Below are positions 44,483-55,397 of a DNA stretch of 64,000 bases, in pieces; positions within the stretch are counted from its first letter, which is position 1; every line of letters starts with the position of its first letter. The stretch comes from Rhodothermaceae bacterium. Its GTDB lineage: Bacteria; Bacteroidota; Rhodothermia; Rhodothermales; Bin80. Made by a program: the position numbers and the translations under genes. Where the stretch lies: contig VXSC01000008.1 of assembly GCA_009838195.1 (NCBI GenBank), positions 76,288-140,287 on the forward strand. Reading direction: 5' to 3'. The notes below the pieces were generated by a model. The model saw only the letters and a list, made by a program, of their open reading frames with translations. It did no database searches and was not told the DNA's origin.

Positions 44483-45604
44483 GTGATACTCATATTAAAA
44501 CCCAATACGGACCAGGATTCGCCACGGTATGGACTCCTGACGCGTTATCTGGACTCGCTCGTGAACATTACCTATCAAGTCCGGCATATTCAGGGTACTG
44601 GTCAGCGACTGACTGAGATCTACCTACTGGGGGATACCAAATCCCTCTCAATGGAATTCATGCGAAGCCTGCCCTGCGTGCAGCGTGTAGTCCGTGTACA
44701 GGAAGCCTACCGAGTGCTCGGAAGACATGGCCAGGAAGACTTCCCTCATCAGTTTGAATACAACGGAATCACATTCAATCAAACGAATCTCCATGTATTT
44801 GCTGGACTGTGCGCAGTGGATACTCCGGAGCATGTAGAACTCATGATGAAGGCGCTCAAGGAAAACGGGCAAGCCTGCACTCGAATGGGAGCCTACAAAC
44901 CACGTACTAATCCCTATTCTTTCCAGGGACACGGAAAAAACTGTCTCCCCTATGTCTTTCAACTCGCGGGCAAATACGACATCCGAATCATTTGCATGGA
45001 AGTCACGCACGAATCGCATATCCTAGAGATTCATGAGGCTCTCGAGGCCACAGGGCATCCCACCGGCGTCATGCTGCAGATCGGTACGCGTAATACACAG
45101 AATTTTGAACTACTCAAGTGTGCTGGCCGTCAGGATAACTACCCCGTCCTGATCAAGAGAGGATTTGGAATCACATTAAATGAATCACTGAATGCGGCGG
45201 AATACCTGGCCAGTGAAGGGAATCGACGCGTGATCTTTGCACTGCGTGGAATGAAAACGAACCTGGGTGATCCACATCGAAATTTCGTTGACTTCTCGCA
45301 TGTACCGGTCGTCCATCGACTCACTCGAATGCCTGTATGCATTGATCCATCCCACTCTGTCGGCAACAGGCAACGAAGCCCGGATGGATTATTGGATGTG
45401 ATGCATGCTACAGCACAGGGCATTATCGCCGGAGCAAATATGGTACTTGTTGATTTCCATCCAAAACCTGCCAAGGCATTGGTGGATGGCCCCCAGGCAC
45501 TGCGTCCAGATGAACTTCCGCTCTTTCTGGAAGATGTTCAGATTGCACGTGATGCCTATCTCAAACGTGTTGCGCTGGTTCAATCCAGACAAGAGGCCGC
45601 GTAA
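44483..45604 (+). CDS. aroF: 3-deoxy-7-phosphoheptulonate synthase (AroF-type)
   Basis: First enzyme of the shikimate pathway. The 373-residue product has a short N-terminal ferredoxin-like regulatory part (residues 1-75) and a TIM barrel with KENGQACTRMGAYKPRTNPYSFQG, LLKCAGRQDNYPVLIKRGFG and the C-terminal CIDPSHSVGNRQ metal-site motif, features of class I-beta DAHP synthases. The GTG at 44483 gives the natural start; the frame stays open 24 codons upstream. It overlaps the convergent pepF by 25 nt. Confidence 0.93.
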   Translation: MILILKPNTDQDSPRYGLLTRYLDSLVNITYQVRHIQGTGQRLTEIYLLGDTKSLSMEFMRSLPCVQRVVRVQEAYRVLGRHGQEDFPHQFEYNGITFNQTNLHVFAGLCAVDTPEHVELMMKALKENGQACTRMGAYKPRTNPYSFQGHGKNCLPYVFQLAGKYDIRIICMEVTHESHILEIHEALEATGHPTGVMLQIGTRNTQNFELLKCAGRQDNYPVLIKRGFGITLNESLNAAEYLASEGNRRVIFALRGMKTNLGDPHRNFVDFSHVPVVHRLTRMPVCIDPSHSVGNRQRSPDGLLDVMHATAQGIIAGANMVLVDFHPKPAKALVDGPQALRPDELPLFLEDVQIARDAYLKRVALVQSRQEAA

Positions 45605-47367
45605 CAGGCTTCGGCCCGCTCGATCAGTGCTTCGACCTCACTGAGTCCTTTGTGCCAGAATTCTGGATCTTGCAAGTCAACCCCCAAGCGGCCAACAAGG
45701 ATATGTGGCCAATCGGATCCACCTGCCCTCATTAACTCAATGTATTGATCTGGAAATTCGTCAGGAGATTCGAGGTAGCGTTTATACAGGGCCAATACTA
45801 ACAGCTCCCCGAATGCATATGCGTAGACATAGCCTGGTGTATGCAAAAAATGCGGGATATAACTCCACCAGCTACGATACTGCTCAGTGAGTACCACGCT
45901 ATTGCCAAACATAGCTGATTGAGTAGACATCCAGTACTCTGCAAATTTATCCGACGATAATTCTCCCTCCTCACGCCTTGCGGTGTGGATCGCGTGCTCA
46001 AATCGATTCATGGCAACTTGGCGGAAGACGGTTGCCATGGTATCATCAATCTTGCTCACCAGAAGCGTCAGCACATTACGTGGATTAGGCTCTTCCGCCA
46101 ACAAGCGCTGGAACGTAAGCATCTCCCCGAACACAGAGGCCGTCTCCGCCGTAGTTAACGGGGTAGAAGCCTGCAAGTAACCCTGTTCTCTTGAAAGGAA
46201 CTGATGCACCCCATGCCCAAGCTCATGTGCTAGGGTTTGCACATCTCGTGCACGCCCGGTATAATTTAACAGCACGTAGGGATGTACACTGGGGACTGAG
46301 CCATGGCTGAATGCCCCACCCTGCTTGCCCACCTGTACGGGTGCATCGATCCACTTTTCTTCAAAAAACCGCTCGGCAACATCCGCCAGAAGTGTATGAA
46401 ATCCCCGGTAACTCTCCAGGGTAATATGTCTGGCATTACTCCATGAATAGTGGGTGTCGCTCTCTCCGACAGGTGCATACCGGTCATAATCATAAAGTGG
46501 GTTGAGCCCCAGAATTTTAGCCTTAAGTTCATAAAAGCGAGCCACCAGGTCATAACGGCTCACTACCGCCTGCACCAGAGCTTCTGCTGTTTCATCGGCA
46601 ATCTCATTGCCCAGGTTACGGGACTTGAGCCAGTGTGGCAACCCTCGCATACGGTCATTTGCAGCCTTGTCAGCCAGCAGTGTATTGAAGATGTACGTGA
46701 GCGTATGCTCATTCGAGGCGAGCCCTTTTGAAAAGCTGTCCGCAGCCTCTTTGCGTAGTCCCCGGTCGTGGGCATGAAGCTTTGTGAGCAAATGCTCCTG
46801 AGGAAGAACTTCTCCTCGAAGTGTAAAGCGCATTCTACTGGTTGTCTCAGTGAAGTAGCGCATCCAGGCAGATCTTCCGGTCACCTGCGTCTCTGCCAGA
46901 ATCTTCTCCTCTGCCTCTGAGAGGGTGTAGTCCTTAAGAAGTCGTTCACATTCTAGAAAATGACGATATCCGGCAAGTTCGTCACCCTCCATCAATACCC
47001 GAGCCTGATCATCATCCACTCTCATCCACTCCAACCCAAAGAATAGCAGGTTCTTACTAATTTGCGTGGACAACTCACGAACATGCTGCAGAAGTGCGCC
47101 ACGTACCGGATCATCCGTAGCCGTAACCCACGAGAGGTAGGCATAAGTCATTGCGCGACCAACCCGCTCTTGAATCAGCTCGTACTCCGTGATCGCCTCC
47201 TTCATCTGAATTACCTCCAGACTTGCTACCCTGCCCCTCCATGACTTGTTAAACCTTTCCGCGTCACTGGTTACATCAATCAGGTCTTTTCGTAAATCGG
47301 ACTCACTCAGATAAAGATGAGTCAGATCCCAATGTACATTTTCAGCACCGGTCGTTTGAGAGTCCAT
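45580..47367 (-). CDS. pepF: Oligoendopeptidase F
   Basis: A zinc metallopeptidase of the M3 family, 595 residues, which cleaves short peptides in the cytoplasm. The zinc motif is LAHELGHGVHQFLS (about residue 380) with the downstream Glu in SVFGEML. The N-terminal PepF domain (HWDLTHLYLSESDLRKDL) and the C-terminal Tyr/His-rich region are also present. Full length. Convergent overlap with aroF; the divergent ytxJ starts 85 nt upstream. Confidence 0.93.
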   Translation of the reverse strand: MDSQTTGAENVHWDLTHLYLSESDLRKDLIDVTSDAERFNKSWRGRVASLEVIQMKEAITEYELIQERVGRAMTYAYLSWVTATDDPVRGALLQHVRELSTQISKNLLFFGLEWMRVDDDQARVLMEGDELAGYRHFLECERLLKDYTLSEAEEKILAETQVTGRSAWMRYFTETTSRMRFTLRGEVLPQEHLLTKLHAHDRGLRKEAADSFSKGLASNEHTLTYIFNTLLADKAANDRMRGLPHWLKSRNLGNEIADETAEALVQAVVSRYDLVARFYELKAKILGLNPLYDYDRYAPVGESDTHYSWSNARHITLESYRGFHTLLADVAERFFEEKWIDAPVQVGKQGGAFSHGSVPSVHPYVLLNYTGRARDVQTLAHELGHGVHQFLSREQGYLQASTPLTTAETASVFGEMLTFQRLLAEEPNPRNVLTLLVSKIDDTMATVFRQVAMNRFEHAIHTARREEGELSSDKFAEYWMSTQSAMFGNSVVLTEQYRSWWSYIPHFLHTPGYVYAYAFGELLVLALYKRYLESPDEFPDQYIELMRAGGSDWPHILVGRLGVDLQDPEFWHKGLSEVEALIERAEACYAASCLD

Positions 47368-47452
47368 TACACTGTGGAAATTAGCACTCGCGTAGAACCT
47401 TGATTGCTATAAATTGTTGTAATCTGATACCGTAACACAATCCAATACCTTG

Positions 47453-47773
47453 ATGTCCTATCAGTCAATTGACTCCATTAATGATTTCGATGCGATCCTA
47501 AAACAGTCCGATTCGGAAACAGTCGCAGTCTTCAAGCATAGCTCCACTTGCGATCTCTCTGCTACGGCCAAGGATGAAATGGCAAACGTCAAGCTCCCCG
47601 TCTTTGAGCTTGTTGTTCAGACGGCACGCCCTCTGTCCAATCATATTGAGGCTCATTTTGGGATTCGACACGAATCGCCTCAAGTGATTTTAATCTCCCG
47701 AGGCGAGTCCATCTATAACGCGTCTCATCGGGCTGTGACTGCGGACAGTATCCACGCAGCTGCTGCACAGTAG
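47453..47773 (+). CDS. ytxJ: Bacilliredoxin-like protein YtxJ (BrxC family)
   Basis: A thioredoxin-fold protein of about 106 residues that in the family removes bacillithiol from proteins. The segment VAVFKHSSTCDLSATAKDEM holds the single active-site Cys (Bacillus YtxJ has TCPIS; here TCDLS), followed by HFGIRHESPQVILISRG with the conserved cis-Pro. It fits bacillithiol use by this lineage. The ATG at 47453 is one codon after a TTG. Confidence 0.87.
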   Translation: MSYQSIDSINDFDAILKQSDSETVAVFKHSSTCDLSATAKDEMANVKLPVFELVVQTARPLSNHIEAHFGIRHESPQVILISRGESIYNASHRAVTADSIHAAAAQ

Positions 47774-48040
47774 TGGTCCAGGAGTCAGATGAGCCATTCT
47801 AAGCAATCTTGAGGTTCCCCGTCCGCTGGTTAGGGATAATGCTATATCGCTGGCCAGATTTATAGTCGCTTTACCCGGATTTAGGCTGAGAAATTCCGCA
47901 AATTTGTTCGTTATTTGAACAAATTCCTCGTGATCTTCTGGCGACTCTCTCATTCGAGTGATATTTCGCCAGACCCCGAAATATTCCGTATTGAATTTTA
48001 GCCATTTGGAGTCAGGATCATCCTCATTTTCTGGCTTCAT
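47690..48040 (-). CDS. Possible small hypothetical protein
   Basis: A 116-residue frame between ytxJ and metH. Its first about 70 residues (rich in Glu, Asp, Asn) lie outside any other gene; the last 28 codons are antisense to ytxJ. There is no recognisable domain and no strong start signal. It may be real or chance; the rest of this 313-bp gap (47774-48086) holds nothing else I can name. Confidence 0.3.
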   Translation of the reverse strand: MKPENEDDPDSKWLKFNTEYFGVWRNITRMRESPEDHEEFVQITNKFAEFLSLNPGKATINLASDIALSLTSGRGTSRLLRMAHLTPGPLLCSSCVDTVRSHSPMRRVIDGLASGD

Positions 48041-48086
48041 CGCCTCAATGGGGCATTCAGGTTCACAGACTACACCATCGATGCAT

Positions 48087-50717
48087 TCACCCTGCTACTG
48101 CTTCGACTTCTGCTGGATCATAGTTCAAAATCGGCCCTAACCAGCGCTCCACCTCACGCACCTGCATCCCTTTGCGGCGAGCATAGTCCTCAACCTGATC
48201 CCGATCAATCCGGCCAACGGCGAAATAAGTGCTTTCTGGATGCGCAATGTACAATCCAGAAACAGAGGCAGCGGGGATCATTGCACAGCTAGTGGTCAAT
48301 TCCATCCCAATGCGATTCGCGTCAAGCAAGCGAAAAATCGTCTCCTTCTCCGTATGGTCGGGCTGGCAGGGATAACCCGGCGCCGGTCGAATACCAGAGT
48401 AAGCCTCTTTGATTAAGGCTTCATTGTCATAGTTTTCATCCGCCGCATATCCCCAAAGCTCCTTCCGGACACGCTCATGCATATACTCCGCCAGAGCTTC
48501 TGCAAATCGATCAGCAAGGGACTTGATCATGATCGCTGAATAGTCATCGGAATCGGCCTCAAACATTTTGGCAATCTGCTCCGCCTCGGTTCCGGAAGTG
48601 ACCGCGAAGGCCCCAACATGATCACCCACCTCTGCAATGAAGTCAGACAGAGCAAAATTGGCTCGGCCATTGTCTTTTATCATTTGCTGACGAAGTGTAA
48701 AGAACGTTTCGCCAGTATTGAGCTTGATATCGTCACCGTCCCGGGAAGCCTCCCAAAAACCAACAACAGCTTTCGGCTTGAACCAACCCTGATCCATGAT
48801 TTGTTGCAGCATCACCTGGGTATCGCGCCAAAGGTCACGCGCCGCTTTACCTTTCGTCTCGTGTTCCAGGATTTTTGGATATCGTCCAGCTAGGTTCCAG
48901 GTTACGAAATATGGGGTCCAGTCAATGTAGCGAGCGAGCTGTGACAGATCAAAGTCCTCAAAAACTTTGGTGCCTTTATAACTCGGGACTTGAGGAGCCG
49001 GAGTCTGCAGCTTGTGCGCGTGGCTACGTGCTACTTGAATCGAATAGCGTGGCTTTGGTGGACCACCCACTCGGCGGTCACGCATTCGCTGATACTTGGC
49101 CTTTATGGTCTCAACAAAAAGTGGGCGCTCATCATCGGAGAACAATGAGGAGACAGTCCCAATCGCACGGCTTGCATCGGTAACGTGAATAGATGGGCCA
49201 TTGCTGCGGGCCGGGTCGATTTTCACGGCTGTATGCACTGGAGAGGTAGTTGCCCCTCCGATCAACAGAGGCTGTTTCATGCCAAGACGCTGCATTTCGC
49301 CTGCTACATAGACCATTTCGTCCAGACTTGGTGTGATGAGTCCAGAGAGACCAATAATATCAACCTGTTCTTCTTTGGCTTTGTTGAGAATATTCTCACA
49401 CGGCACCATAACGCCCATATCAACAACCTCATAGCCGTTGCACGCAAGCACTACACCGACAATATTCTTCCCGATATCGTGTACATCACCTTTGACGGTG
49501 GCCATCAGGATTTTGCCATTCGAAGCGTCAACGACTCCTAGCTTTTCTTTATCGGCCTGCATGAACGGGTCGAGATAAGCTACAGCCGCTTTCATGACAC
49601 GGGCAGACTTCACAACTTGCGGCAAGAACATTCTACCGGACCCAAACAGGTCACCCACCACGTTCATGCCATCCATGAGCGGGCCTTCAATAACATGCAA
49701 CGGGCGGTCCGCCTCAGCTCTGGCCTCCTCCGTATCCTCGACAATAAATTCGGTGATTCCATTTACAAGTGCATATTCAAGCCGCTTCTCCACAGGGAGT
49801 TTGCGCCAAGACATATCTTTTTGTACCGACTTTCCTTTTTGACCACGGAACTGCTCGGCGTAATCAACGAGCGCCTCTGTCGCGCCCTCATTACGGTTGA
49901 GGATCACATCTTCGACCAGTTCTCGCAGTGTCGGTTCAATCTCGTCATAGATATCCAGTTGACCAGCATTCACAATTCCCATGTTCATCCCGGCAGGGAT
50001 CGCGTGATACAAAAAGACGGAATGCATCGCCCGACGCACTGGCTCATTGCCACGGAAACTGAAGGATACATTCGAGAGCCCACCCGAGATATGACAGCCA
50101 AGGCATGTCCTACGGATGACCCGTGCTGCCTCAATAAAATCAACTGCATAATTATTGTGTTCTGGAATTCCCGTGGCAACGGCAAAAATGTTTGGGTCAA
50201 AAATTATGTCTTCGGCGGGGAAACCAACTTCTTCGGTAAGAATCTTGAATGCCCGCTGACAAATCTCAATCTTGCGTGATGCAGTGTCCGCCTGACCCAC
50301 CTCATCAAACGCCATCACGATGACTGCTGCGCCGTAAGACAGACATGCATGTGCTCGCTCTCGAAACTGATCCTCTCCTTCCTTCAGTGAGATTGAATTG
50401 ACCACGGCCTTGCCTTGGACACATTTGAGACCTGCCTCGATCACTTCCCACTTTGAGCTGTCAATCATGATTGGCACCCGGGCAATGTCGGGCTCGGCGG
50501 CAATCAGGTTGAGGAAGGTTTGCATGGCTTTGACACCATCAAGCATCCCCTCATCCATATTTACATCAATGATCTGTGCACCGCTTTCGACCTGCTGTCG
50601 TGCAACTTCTACGGCGGTCGCATAATCGCCACTCACGATCAGTCTCCGGAACTTGGCGGAACCGGTCACATTGGTCCGCTCACCAATGTTTACAAATGTC
50701 TGGGCAGCTGTACTCAT
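48087..50717 (-). CDS. metH: Cobalamin-dependent methionine synthase, pterin/B12/activation part
   Basis: An 876-residue protein covering the last three modules of MetH. The methyl-THF-binding barrel is residues about 1-290 ([13 protein letters not shown] at the start). The B12 cap and cobalamin domain are about 300-530, with the DVHDIGKN base-off motif near residue 410 and [11 protein letters not shown]. The SAM-dependent reactivation domain is about 590-876 ([31 protein letters not shown]). The homocysteine domain is missing and is encoded by the next gene upstream. Third gene of the met operon. Confidence 0.94.
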
Positions 50718-50811
50718 TCCCTATCCGGGCCTTTGTTTGGCCAGAAGCCCTTGAGGTTATGATTATCAGGATTGGTCACCCTATTGGCCATAGATCCCCT
50801 TCTCCCTCAGT

Positions 50812-51888
50812 TTAATTCGCCAATTCAAAAGATTCCAAGCCCGCAAGTCGTAACGTATCCCTACTTCCGACTGGAATTCGTGGCTGCAAACCCTCTATTG
50901 CCTCCGCGATTGCACAAATATGCTCTGGAGTAGTGCCACAACATCCCCCGAGGATATTCACGATGCCATCCTGAGCCCATTTACCGACTTCGTCTGCGGT
51001 CTCCTGTGGTGACTCCTCATACTGTCCCATCTCGTTGGGCAGCCCAGCATTCGGATACGCGGCAACCCAGGTATCTGCAACACGGGACATAGCGGCAATA
51101 TGCGGACGCATTAGATCGGCACCAAGTGCACAATTGAACCCCACCGCAAATGGTTTTACGTGGCGTATCGAATGCCAAAATGCTTCAACTGTTTGACCTG
51201 ACAGGGTGCGCCCCGACCGGTCTGTAATAGTCCCGGAAATCCAAACCGGTAGCTTTTCAAGGCCTTCTGCCTCGAGATCAACGATCGCTTTGATTGCTGC
51301 CTTGCAGTTTAGTGTATCGGTGACCGTCTCGATCAAATAGAGATGTACTCCGCCTCTATTCAGAGCTTCGATTTGCTCACGATACGCTTGGTAGACCTGG
51401 TCAAATGTTACTTCCCGTGCGCCAGGATCATTGACATCTGCGCTCATGGAGAGCATCTTGTTCAGCGGCCCAATGGAGCCTGCGACGAAGCGTGGCTTCT
51501 GCGGCTCTTTTTTTGTCCACTTATCTGCCGATGCGCGGGCAAGTTTTGCACCTTGGTAATTGATATCAACGACTGACCGGAGATCAAGTGCGTAATCATC
51601 CTGTACGATCGTTGTCGCGGAGAAGGTATTCGTCTCTGAGATATCCGCCCCGGCCGCAAAATAGGCGTCATGCAATTCTGTCACATACTCTGGTCGTGTT
51701 AAGCATAGAATATCATTATTGCCCTTCATATGAACCGGGTATTCTTCCTCAGAGAACCGTGCCCCGCGATAATCCTCTTCTTCAAGCCCCATTCTTTGAA
51801 ACATCGCACCCCAACAACCATCAAGTAGCAATATGCGCTGCTTGACAGCTAAGTAGAGCTGATCAATACGGCCTTGGCGATTGGTCAT
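50812..51888 (-). CDS. Homocysteine S-methyltransferase (N-terminal module of split MetH)
   Basis: A 358-residue homocysteine-binding barrel. The opening RILLLDGCWGAMFQRMGLEEEDYRG and the zinc ligands (Cys in VGFNCALG, about residue 252, and the Cys pair in GGCCGTTPEH, about 312) match the first domain of MetH. It lies 94 nt before the remainder of MetH; together they make one complete enzyme in two chains. A TTG one codon upstream is an alternative start. Confidence 0.92.
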   Translation of the reverse strand: MTNRQGRIDQLYLAVKQRILLLDGCWGAMFQRMGLEEEDYRGARFSEEEYPVHMKGNNDILCLTRPEYVTELHDAYFAAGADISETNTFSATTIVQDDYALDLRSVVDINYQGAKLARASADKWTKKEPQKPRFVAGSIGPLNKMLSMSADVNDPGAREVTFDQVYQAYREQIEALNRGGVHLYLIETVTDTLNCKAAIKAIVDLEAEGLEKLPVWISGTITDRSGRTLSGQTVEAFWHSIRHVKPFAVGFNCALGADLMRPHIAAMSRVADTWVAAYPNAGLPNEMGQYEESPQETADEVGKWAQDGIVNILGGCCGTTPEHICAIAEAIEGLQPRIPVGSRDTLRLAGLESFELAN

Positions 51889-51970
51889 CAAACTTCGGCG
51901 ACGGTTACATAAATGAGCATAGCGAAGCCTGTATCTATCCCTCGACTACGGCGCGAACGAATCCTGAAGA

Positions 51971-51988
51971 GCACTGCCGGAGCAGTGC
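51971..51988 (-). promoter_or_regulatory. Small hairpin between metF fusion and split metH
   Basis: Perfect 7-bp arms (GCACTGC/GCAGTGC) with a CGGA loop in the 141-nt gap. No T-run follows on the minus strand, so it is unlikely to be a terminator; it may stabilise or process the operon mRNA. Confidence 0.35.
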
Positions 51989-52029
51989 ATTGACAATCCG
52001 GTAATGAACAAGAACTTTCCATGGTCCTA

Positions 52030-53910
52030 TTACACCACCGCCTGCGGCTTCAATCCAAGTAATCGACAGGTAGACAGTGCCAAGCTCGCGCGATTAAGCG
52101 TATAGAAATGAAACTCATTCACGCCTTGCTCTGATAGCTTGTGGCAGAGTTCGGCGGCTACATTCGCCGTGATGAATTCACACGTCACCGTATCTTCATC
52201 AGTCCCCTCGTAAAGCTCATGCAGCCAGTCTGGTAAATTGACCTGGCAGAGATCTGCAATACGTTTCATGCCTTTGAAGTTCGGTTGCAGCATGATCCCG
52301 GGTACAATCGGCATGGTAACCCCACCTGCCCGTGCACGGTCAAGAAAGGCAAAGTAGACCGCCGGCTCAAAGAAAAATTGTGTAATCGCGCGGTCAGCAC
52401 CAGCATCCTGTTTGGCTCTTAAAAATGCGATATCCCGGTCCCAGCCTCGACTATGCGGATGTTGCTCTGGATAGCAGGAAACGCTGATTTCAAATCTGGC
52501 ATCAGGCACAGCGTCATGTGCTCGAATCCCCTCAATCAATTCGATGCTATTGCGAAAACCACCTGGATGTTGCTCAAATTTTTCGCCGATGCCTTCGGGA
52601 GGATCGCCTCGCAGTGCCACCAGGTGACGTATGCCCGCTCGCCATAAATCGACTGCGACCTGTAAAACTTCTTCCTTGGTTGCGCTCACACAGGTCAGAT
52701 GCGCGGCCGGCAAGAGCGGAGTGTCCTGTGCAATTTTGGTGACAATCCTTTGCGTTCGATTTCGTGTAGTGCCACCAGCTCCGTAGGTTACAGACACAAA
52801 ACGCGGTGCCATTGGTGTCAGGCGTGCAACCGATTCCCAGAGCTTGGCCTCCATCTTGTCCGTTTTCGGTGGAAAGAACTCGAATGAGACGTTGGGAGCT
52901 GGTTTCGATTGCTGCTCCGCAGCGGCGAGTTGATTCACGCTGTAGCCTCCTGGTGGACTGGCATGCCAAGTCGCCGTCCAAATGAGAACGCTGATGCCCT
53001 GATCAAGTGAGGCGGGTGGGTCAAATTTCTTCACCTGTACGGAAAACCCGGCTGCTTCCGCCCATTGCAGCATATCGTCTTCGGAAATTCCAAGCCGATA
53101 GTGTCCCTGGGATTCACGTAAAAACTCGAGTTCATGCGGGGCAAAATCAACGACAAGAAGTTGCCCTCCCGGTTTGAGAATGCGTGCAGCCTCTGTGATT
53201 ACATCCTCGGGTTTTTCGAGATAATGCAACACTTGATGCACGATAACAAAATCAGCACTATCGCTCTCGAAAGGGGTATGCGTGGCATCACCCTGACGAA
53301 CGCGTGCGTTGCCTATCCCTGCTCGGCTGAGGTTTGCCCGTGCAACAGTTAGCATCTGATGGGCGAGATCAAGGCCTTCGGCCTCCTGTGTGTACGGGGA
53401 CAGCAAAATCAGCATCCGCCCGGTACCGGTCCCAAGATCAATGACGCGCTCAAAGTGGTATGTCCCAATATGATCAAGGATGGCCTGCTCAATTGCTGCA
53501 TCGGGATAATGCAGAGCCCGCAACCGGTCCCAGTCTTCGGCGATTTCTGAAAAGTAGGTCGCGGCTGATTTTGCACGAACTTTGCGAACCCGCTGCAGGG
53601 CTTTAAGGTCAGACGTAAATGGATCACTATCGGTCTCTAATTCAGCAAAGAGTCCCTGCAGTAGCCTTCCGGCCCAACCTTTATTTTGGATTCGATAGAA
53701 TACCCAAGATCCCTCAGGCAGCCGTTCGACCAAGCCCGCCCGTGCCAATGTCTTTAGATGATGTGAGAGACGTGGTTGACTTTGATTGAGAATTTGTGCC
53801 AGTTCACCAACAGCAAGGTCGCCACAGCGCAGCAGCACAAGAATGCGTAGCCGGTTCGGCTCGCCAGCCGCCTTCATAGCACCAATAAGCAGCCTCTGAC
53901 ACACGTCCAT
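52030..53910 (-). CDS. metF: ArsR regulator - SAM methyltransferase - MetF fusion protein
   Basis: One uninterrupted 626-codon frame. Residues 1-90 form an ArsR-type winged helix (GEPNRLRILVLL, VGELAQILNQSQPRLSHHLKTLARAGLVE) without the metal-binding ELCVC cysteines. Residues about 110-312 are a class I methyltransferase (VIDLGTGTGRM, ADFVIVHQVLHYLEKP, ILKPGGQLLVVDF). Residues 340-626 are a complete methylenetetrahydrofolate reductase (NVSFEFFPPKT, RFVSVTYGAGGTTRNRT, HLVALRGDPP, ITQFFFE, HFYTLNRA). MetF makes the methyl-THF used by MetH, encoded just downstream. In Alphaproteobacteria similar ArsR-methyltransferase and metF genes are separate neighbours. Start ATG 53910. Confidence 0.93.
   Translation of the reverse strand: MDVCQRLLIGAMKAAGEPNRLRILVLLRCGDLAVGELAQILNQSQPRLSHHLKTLARAGLVERLPEGSWVFYRIQNKGWAGRLLQGLFAELETDSDPFTSDLKALQRVRKVRAKSAATYFSEIAEDWDRLRALHYPDAAIEQAILDHIGTYHFERVIDLGTGTGRMLILLSPYTQEAEGLDLAHQMLTVARANLSRAGIGNARVRQGDATHTPFESDSADFVIVHQVLHYLEKPEDVITEAARILKPGGQLLVVDFAPHELEFLRESQGHYRLGISEDDMLQWAEAAGFSVQVKKFDPPASLDQGISVLIWTATWHASPPGGYSVNQLAAAEQQSKPAPNVSFEFFPPKTDKMEAKLWESVARLTPMAPRFVSVTYGAGGTTRNRTQRIVTKIAQDTPLLPAAHLTCVSATKEEVLQVAVDLWRAGIRHLVALRGDPPEGIGEKFEQHPGGFRNSIELIEGIRAHDAVPDARFEISVSCYPEQHPHSRGWDRDIAFLRAKQDAGADRAITQFFFEPAVYFAFLDRARAGGVTMPIVPGIMLQPNFKGMKRIADLCQVNLPDWLHELYEGTDEDTVTCEFITANVAAELCHKLSEQGVNEFHFYTLNRASLALSTCRLLGLKPQAVV
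52936..52951 (-). promoter_or_regulatory. Internal Shine-Dalgarno and GTG start for free MetF
   Basis: AGGAGG (plus-strand 52946-52951) lies 7 nt before an in-frame GTG (52938-52936, codon 325 of the fusion). Starting there gives a 302-residue protein beginning NQLAAAEQQSKPAPN and covering all of MetF, close to the usual MetF length of about 300. It falls exactly in the linker between methyltransferase and MetF domains. Confidence 0.55.
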
Positions 53911-53920
53911 CAGAACTCAT

Positions 53921-53943
53921 TATAAATATTTGTTTATATAAAC
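53921..53943. promoter_or_regulatory. Candidate operator/promoter of the met operon
   Basis: TATAAATATTTGTTTATA (53921-53938) is an 18-bp imperfect palindrome (7 of 9 pairs), overlapping the perfect 12-bp palindrome GTTTATATAAAC (53932-53943). It begins 11 nt before the fusion gene ATG and, on the minus strand, contains TATAAT as a possible -10 box. AT-rich palindromes of this kind are typical ArsR-family operators, so autoregulation by the fusion's own DNA-binding domain is plausible. Confidence 0.5.
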
Positions 53944-54380
53944 GCACCTTTTAATGAAAATGTTCAGAAATTGCAAAATTTAAATGTCTTCGGGTCGTCG
54001 AAAGGGGCTCATGCGGGGTCAGGTCCTAATGTGCATCCGATGAATCGCTGTGGTTTCAACTTTTACCTCGAAACGGGAAACCGTAGGTGGAAATGACTGC
54101 TTTTACAGGTTAGTCTACCAACCAAAGCAGTACTTCTATGGGTATCACTGAATATTCTTCCCTTCACGTCTAACCAACCCCAATAAACTCAAAGAGTGGA
54201 CTCCCGTCGCACCACAGACATCGGGAATCTTTGGTCAATAGGGACTACCAGTTTTGTGCTCACCGAGCACTACAATACATTCGTGAATCTGGTAAGTGCA
54301 ATCACAGAGGGGACCCACCCTGGAGCGCTCACATCTAATAGCAAGCGGGCAGGGATGCTCTTTCAGGAAAATGGCAATCA
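53944..54380. other. Non-coding region between met operon and recA end
   Basis: About 437 bases. No gene or riboswitch recognised. A GGGGTCAGGTC string near 54017 recalls the start of some REP-type sequences, but no paired repeat is nearby. Confidence 0.5.
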
Positions 54381-55397
54381 CTACGCACTCTCAGTAGGAA
54401 CACTGAGGCCCAAATTCTCGCGTACGACAGCCTTGATTGATTGGTACTCGTCGGGATTTTCTCTGAGCCAGTTCTTAGCATTATCACGTCCCTGACCAAT
54501 TCGTGCATTTCCATAGCCATACCAGGAACCGCTTTTGGTAATAAGACCAATATTCACCGCTAGGTCAACCAATTCCCCGACAGATGAAATCCCCTCTCCG
54601 TAAATGATATCAAACTCAGCGTTACGGAACGGAGGAGCCACTTTGTTCTTGATCACTTTGACACGCGTTCGGTTACCTATCACTTCGGTCGCACTCTTGA
54701 TTGCACCAATCCTACGAATATCTAACCTGACTGAACTGTAAAACTTTAGGGCTTTTCCACCTGGCGTCGTCTCAGGGTTTCCGAACATCACCCCAATTTT
54801 TTCACGTAACTGATTAATAAAAACCACAGCCACATTCGATCGGTTGATGATACCGGCCAACTTTCTTAGAGCTTGGCTCATAAGGCGAGCTTGCAAGCCA
54901 ACGTGACTATCTCCCATATCCCCTTGAATTTCGGCTGCAGGCACCAGAGCCGCCACCGAGTCAACTACAATGAGATCAAGCGCACCACTGCGCACCAGGG
55001 TTTCGCAAATATTTAATGCCTGTTCTCCTGTGTCGGGCTGCGATATGAGTAGCTGGTCAATATCTACACCTAATTGCTCGGCATAGGATGGATCGAACGC
55101 ATGCTCAGCATCAATAAATGCGCATTGTCCTCCCAACTTCTGTGCCTCGGCAAGGCAATGTGTGGCCAATGTAGTCTTGCCCGACGATTCAGGACCAAAG
55201 ATCTCAACGATTCGTCCACGGGGTATGCCACCTACACCTAGCGCAGCATCCAAAGCTATAGATCCGGTTGGGATAGCTTCCACCTGTACGGGGGGAGAAT
55301 CCCCCATCCTCATGATGGATCCTTTGCCATGTTGTTTCTCAATCTCTTTGATTGCGAGGTTGAGAGCCCGCATTTTAGGGTCTTCTTTTGCACTCAT
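54381..55397 (-). CDS. recA: Recombinase A
   Basis: DNA strand-exchange protein for recombinational repair and SOS induction, 338 residues. Walker A is GPESSGKTT (residues 68-76), Walker [11 protein letters not shown]; also present are the L2 loop region [37 protein letters not shown] and the DNA-binding C-terminal domain. No intein. cinA lies upstream on the same strand, a common pairing. Confidence 0.97.

Follow-up and report, generated by a model that had tools for sequence, protein, structure and literature searches.

SahR, a SAM-cycle regulator of Alphaproteobacteria, has an ArsR winged helix, metF and metH as neighbors, and a palindromic operator at its own gene (PMC4239095, PMC8877191). 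Its predicted core regulon includes ahcY, metK, and metH, and Leyn et al. assign SahR to the Hyphomonadaceae (PMC4239095). In Ensifer aridi, where SahR is a protein of about 340 aa, deletion of sahR leads to higher sahR promoter activity (PMC8877191). S-adenosylhomocysteine (SAH) is the effector of Desulfovibrio SahR, as cited in PMC8877191; the Desulfovibrio protein is a distant relative, and a SAH effector for the subfamily considered here would be carried over by analogy. ArsRM of Brevundimonas sp. M20, from the operon metRFHH (arsRM-metF-HMT-metH), is an unfused protein of two domains that binds its own promoter in EMSA, at a TTTATA-type palindrome, and is reported from a coupled assay to methylate As(III) (PMC10190100). 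That paper does not use the word SahR, yet operon and palindrome fit SahR, and SahR and ArsRM are probably a single family under two names.

Among self-repressing enzymes, PutA switches through flavin redox and membrane binding. Trifunctional PutA is a metabolic enzyme whose own N-terminal DNA-binding domain acts on its own operon (PMC5293562). In eukaryotic MTHFR, the catalytic barrel is linked to a SAM/SAH-binding domain (PMC5995969), and among bacteria MTHFR is known in fused form from a homocysteine S-methyltransferase/MTHFR bifunctional protein of methionine synthesis (NF006396 / PRK08645). Here we describe SahR::MetF from a genus of Rhodothermaceae. SahR and MetF are each known already; what is new, so far as the literature was searched, is their covalent joining. 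The open-access literature yielded no description of such a joining and only the paper on unfused ArsRM (PMC10190100), in line with the original prediction, whose author knew of no described fusion, and a report elsewhere is possible. We think it probable, at roughly three chances in four, that the protein is an autorepressing, SAH-responsive SahR::MetF that arose by operon transfer and fusion.

The window, a stretch of 64,000 nucleotides, contains at 52030-53910 on the minus strand a single ATG-started open reading frame of 626 aa, and its assignment as a fusion gene draws on the ORF call, profile matches, and comparison with congeners. On the same strand, an ArsR-type winged-helix DNA-binding domain (residues 10-95; 53626-53883) with the recognition stretch QSQPRLSHHLK is followed by a class I SAM-methyltransferase-fold domain (residues 141-315; 52966-53490) with an intact glycine motif, DLGTGTG. 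A junction linker (residues 319-334; 52909-52956), a product of the fusion event, then leads into the MTHFR (MetF) TIM barrel (residues 339-620; 52051-52896). Pfam matches to the 626-aa protein agree with this layout: HTH_5/ArsR at residues 18-62 (E 3.5e-14), Methyltransf_11 at residues 158-252 (6e-23), and MTHFR at residues 336-616 (1.1e-84). Pfam and NCBIfam together put the methyltransferase fold at about residues 154-260. An ArsR winged helix, a SAM methyltransferase, and MetF in one 626-residue frame, as had been claimed from the letters, are thus borne out by the ORF, Pfam, and TIGR00676. An AlphaFold model built with 56 sequences folds all three domains with confidence (mean pLDDT 89), confines disorder to residues 319-334, and leaves the relative placement of the domains uncertain (pTM 0.53).

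An SahR/ArsRM-type HTH followed by a SAM-methyltransferase-fold domain is the arrangement of SahR, and on sequence grounds we identify the first half of the protein as alphaproteobacterial SahR. The winged helix had been expected to lack the metal cysteines of classical ArsR, and it does: the ELCVC-type alpha-3 site of ArsR/SmtB is absent, GDLAVGEL stands at the corresponding place, and the only cysteines upstream of residue 407 in the window protein, C4 and C29, are not conserved in the genus. The fusion nevertheless scores above the cut-off of NF033788 despite the absent metal cysteines, and "metalloregulator ArsR", as an automatic label, is misleading in this case.

For the other half, the fusion scores 305.2 bits against the curated cut-off of 293.7 for the NCBIfam equivalog TIGR00676 (MTHFR), and its barrel is about 43% identical to E. 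coli MetF (1b5t, 3fst) in Foldseek structure alignments. All Foldseek matches listed fall on the MTHFR half, and the HTH-methyltransferase half is assigned from sequence and model. Like MetF, the fusion has a complete TIM barrel with the active-site residues kept: equivalents of E. coli E28, D120, Q183, and F223 are all present in the alignment to 3fst (itself the F223L mutant, with F at the aligned place in the fusion), their roles being taken partly from mutant E. coli structures and partly from general knowledge. Unlike E. coli MetF, it carries a 335-residue extension with DNA-binding and SAM-fold domains. The C-terminal domain is probably a working methylenetetrahydrofolate reductase, judged by these conserved residues and by its unfused relatives.

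ArsM enzymes act through conserved cysteines. Residues 96-335 of the window protein, which include the whole methyltransferase-fold domain, contain no cysteine, and none is conserved there in the genus, which speaks against arsenite methylation by this domain. A middle domain that works as an active methyltransferase, for example as the arsenite methylase claimed for the unfused Brevundimonas homolog in the same operon context (PMC10190100), is very unlikely, given both the missing cysteines and an operon, operator, and regulon that point to the methionine cycle. The Brevundimonas protein shares with the fusion its two domains and the gene order of its operon; it differs in being separate from MetF and in its description as an arsenite methylase.

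All 10 species examined of this Rhodothermaceae genus carry the fusion in one frame, at 624-633 aa and 70-100% identity. The genomes are metagenome-assembled (Rhodothermales or Rhodothermaceae MAGs) and come from several independent projects. Metagenome assembly is what might lead one to suspect that two genes were merged by an assembly or sequencing error, but an identical frame of near-constant length in 10 species and several independent assemblies refutes an artefact, the chance of which we regard as negligible. A missed stop or frameshift, for which a check of the reads had been proposed, does not show up in this comparison. The prospect that relatives encode two separate genes came true in the alphaproteobacterial donor group but nowhere inside the genus, where every genome examined has the fused form.

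No fusion was found in other genera among 245 genomes of the class, outside the genus among 394 genomes of the phylum, or in 299 Caulobacterales and 385 Alphaproteobacteria genomes. The full-length matches examined in the last two sets were in-frame neighboring genes with an intervening stop, or long spurious frames. A scan of contigs from 84,980 species, which depends on exact short peptides, returned the fused form in this group alone. Other genera of the family and order have only a distant metF, at about 30-38% identity. Among the genomes searched, the fusion is therefore restricted to one Rhodothermaceae genus. It is also the only MTHFR detected in the window genome, and likewise in congeners among the matches listed.

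The closest proteins outside the genus are encoded by separate genes in Henriciella and other Hyphomonadaceae, which agrees with the earlier statement that separate ArsR-methyltransferase and metF neighbors exist in Alphaproteobacteria. The Hyphomonadaceae ArsR-methyltransferase is 63-74% identical to the regulator half of the fusion and the metF product 77-80% identical to its MetF half; a split metH comes next, at 73-88% identity to that of the genus. A tree built from 59 concatenated SahR+MetF pairs gathers the fused proteins in one clade (support 100), which sits within a clade holding 12 Henriciella-like rows (support 100), itself inside the alphaproteobacterial tree. Since the fused clade is nested in this way, the data indicate that the operon was acquired horizontally from Hyphomonadaceae by an ancestor of the Rhodothermaceae genus and then fused.

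As had been predicted, the fusion heads a met operon. Both parts of metH follow on the minus strand: the N-terminal part with the homocysteine S-methyltransferase domain (359 aa; 50812-51891) as the second gene, and the C-terminal part with the pterin, B12, and activation domains (876 aa; 48087-50717) as the third. The split of metH (48087-51891) is common to the window and its Hyphomonadaceae relatives, and therefore would have been part of the operon when it was transferred. In some Hyphomonadaceae the metH parts are separated by extra genes; the window has none there. DUF3470 typically makes up the tail of a ferredoxin. A 116-aa ORF just 3' of the operon (47690-48040, minus strand) matches DUF3470 at residues 12-50 as its sole Pfam domain and is possibly a remnant.

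In the window, the met operon stands between recA and an oligopeptidase F-like gene (45580-55397). It adjoins recA in the genus genomes G000, G001, and G002; in G004 (L158, L159) it lies on a different contig, and the oligopeptidase F-like gene follows recA without the operon. This arrangement rules out a constant location across the genus: the operon relocated within the genus or was inserted differently.

The unfused Hyphomonadaceae pair mostly overlaps by four bases (ATGA). Compared with the unfused genes, the fused ones show a net change of +1 nucleotide at the junction, 5' of the old stop. We propose that this change at the ATGA overlap joined sahR to metF and that the separate metF start then decayed. 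In the window, the position of the ancestral metF ATG is taken by GTG (codon 325; 52936-52938, minus strand), so that internal initiation might yield a free MetF chain and the cell might hold both fusion and free enzyme. GTG also occupies exactly this ancestral start position in two congeners (L033, L037), but the aligned codon is a non-start in six others (L034, L035, L038, L039, L040, L041). Three of these (L038, L039, L041) have no ATG, GTG, or TTG within the 45 codons preceding the FEFFPP motif, and their next ATG lies inside the barrel. The start codons being gone, MetF in at least those species would be producible only as part of the fusion, and a free chain made by internal initiation at GTG 325 seems to us extremely doubtful.

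Upstream of the gene, a candidate SahR operator lies 11-28 bp 5' of the start codon (53921-53938): the palindrome TATAAACAAATATTTATA on the coding strand, an inverted repeat of the form TATAAA-N6-TTTATA. It is found at the corresponding place in 10/10 genus genomes with zero or one mismatch, whereas the sequence around it has diverged. Whole genomes of the genus hold 2-14 such sites each, and we estimate that any given 60-bp stretch would contain one by chance with a probability of about 1e-4 per genome. Of 44 unfused sahR genes from Alphaproteobacteria, 40 are preceded by the same palindrome (≤2 mismatches). Among Hyphomonadaceae and relatives, five genomes also have it before ahcY, one before metK, and one before metH1, matching core targets predicted for SahR (PMC4239095). 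In Hyphomonadaceae (L042-L051, L143-L149), the operator ends a few bases from the sahR start and touches the ahcY start, which suggests that these transcripts are leaderless.

No operator was found near the ahcY and metK starts in the fused genus, with up to two mismatches allowed, and metH lies inside the fusion's own operon. The regulon therefore appears cut down to that operon, although a distant promoter is possible. SahR in the donor group targets ahcY, metK, and metH; unlike it, the fused protein is in frame with MetF, occurs in Rhodothermaceae, and retains its operator solely at its own operon.

The loss of the wider regulon, together with a recipient in another phylum where promoters differ, raises the question of whether the SahR half is no more than a relic, in which case the fusion would be a plain MTHFR with a nonfunctional N-terminal leftover of the transferred operon. 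Selection argues otherwise. The HTH has the same median dN/dS, 0.070, whether fused or unfused; for the methyltransferase domain the medians are 0.082 in the fused group and 0.103 in the unfused, all these values being rough since dS is near saturation in many pairs. Such low values imply that every domain is under selection and, as estimated from these codon comparisons, purifying selection on the HTH is as strong in the fusion as in the unfused gene. QSQPRLSHHLK in the window is the same as in unfused relatives, and the operator has been kept in all 10 genomes while its flanks diverged. A vestigial SahR half is consequently quite unlikely.

With an intact DLGTGTG in a SAM-fold domain that is now covalently attached to the enzyme, SAM or SAH bound there might also control the MTHFR barrel allosterically, on top of transcriptional control. 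That such control can act across a linker is known from eukaryotic MTHFR (PMC5995969); its SAM domain, unlike that of the fusion, is C-terminal, has an unrelated fold, and comes with no DNA-binding part. The linker of the fusion, on the other hand, is short, evolves fast (dN/dS about 0.27), and is disordered in the model, which speaks mildly against allosteric control, and the domain placement is uncertain. We consider this added layer unlikely. There is an outside chance, then, of two-level methyl control in one polypeptide, in which the SAM/SAH-fold domain gates both operator binding and MTHFR activity; if true, bacteria would have evolved an equivalent of SAM-regulated MTHFR, plus a DNA-binding domain, through one frameshift after horizontal transfer.

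Returning to the reading of SahR::MetF as an autorepressor, we propose the following scheme. A sahR-metF-metH1-metH2 operon would have passed from a Hyphomonadaceae-like alphaproteobacterium to the ancestor of the genus and become its only source of MetF. The winged helix would still bind the SahR palindrome 5' of its own gene. At low SAH, the fusion would sit on the operator beside the start codon and limit transcription of its own gene and metH. The methyltransferase-fold domain most likely senses SAH (or the SAM/SAH ratio) and thereby lifts this repression at times of greater demand for methyl-THF in the methyl cycle; rising SAH would release the fusion, and more methyl-THF and methionine synthase would then remove homocysteine. 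Repression and the response to SAH are read here from unfused relatives and conserved residues. The original prediction had proposed SAM or SAH as the signal, which remains likely, and repression of its own operon, which the conserved operator makes probable; it had left out membership in SahR, the horizontal acquisition of the operon, and the restriction to one genus. Two points count against autorepression. It is unusual for a repressor to be locked to an enzyme in a 1:1 ratio, and, with no operator near ahcY and metK, the regulator has shed most of its original job.

The layout of the fusion is that of a PutA-like trigger enzyme, with enzyme and DNA-binding domain in one chain and a candidate operator at its own gene; domains and pathway are unrelated to those of PutA. 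Unlike the NF006396 / PRK08645 protein, an enzyme-enzyme fusion without a regulator, SahR::MetF joins a regulator to an enzyme. Its 1:1 ratio of repressor to enzyme leaves one asking how a repressor can function at the abundance required of a housekeeping enzyme. Self-repressing enzymes such as PutA and BirA are usually met fully formed. For SahR::MetF, the two-gene ancestral state can be seen alongside the junction and the descendant species, so that the origin of a self-repressing enzyme can be traced stepwise: from transfer of the operon, through a one-nucleotide offset that removed the stop, erosion of the internal start, and retention of the operator, to the narrowing of a multitarget regulon to one operon.
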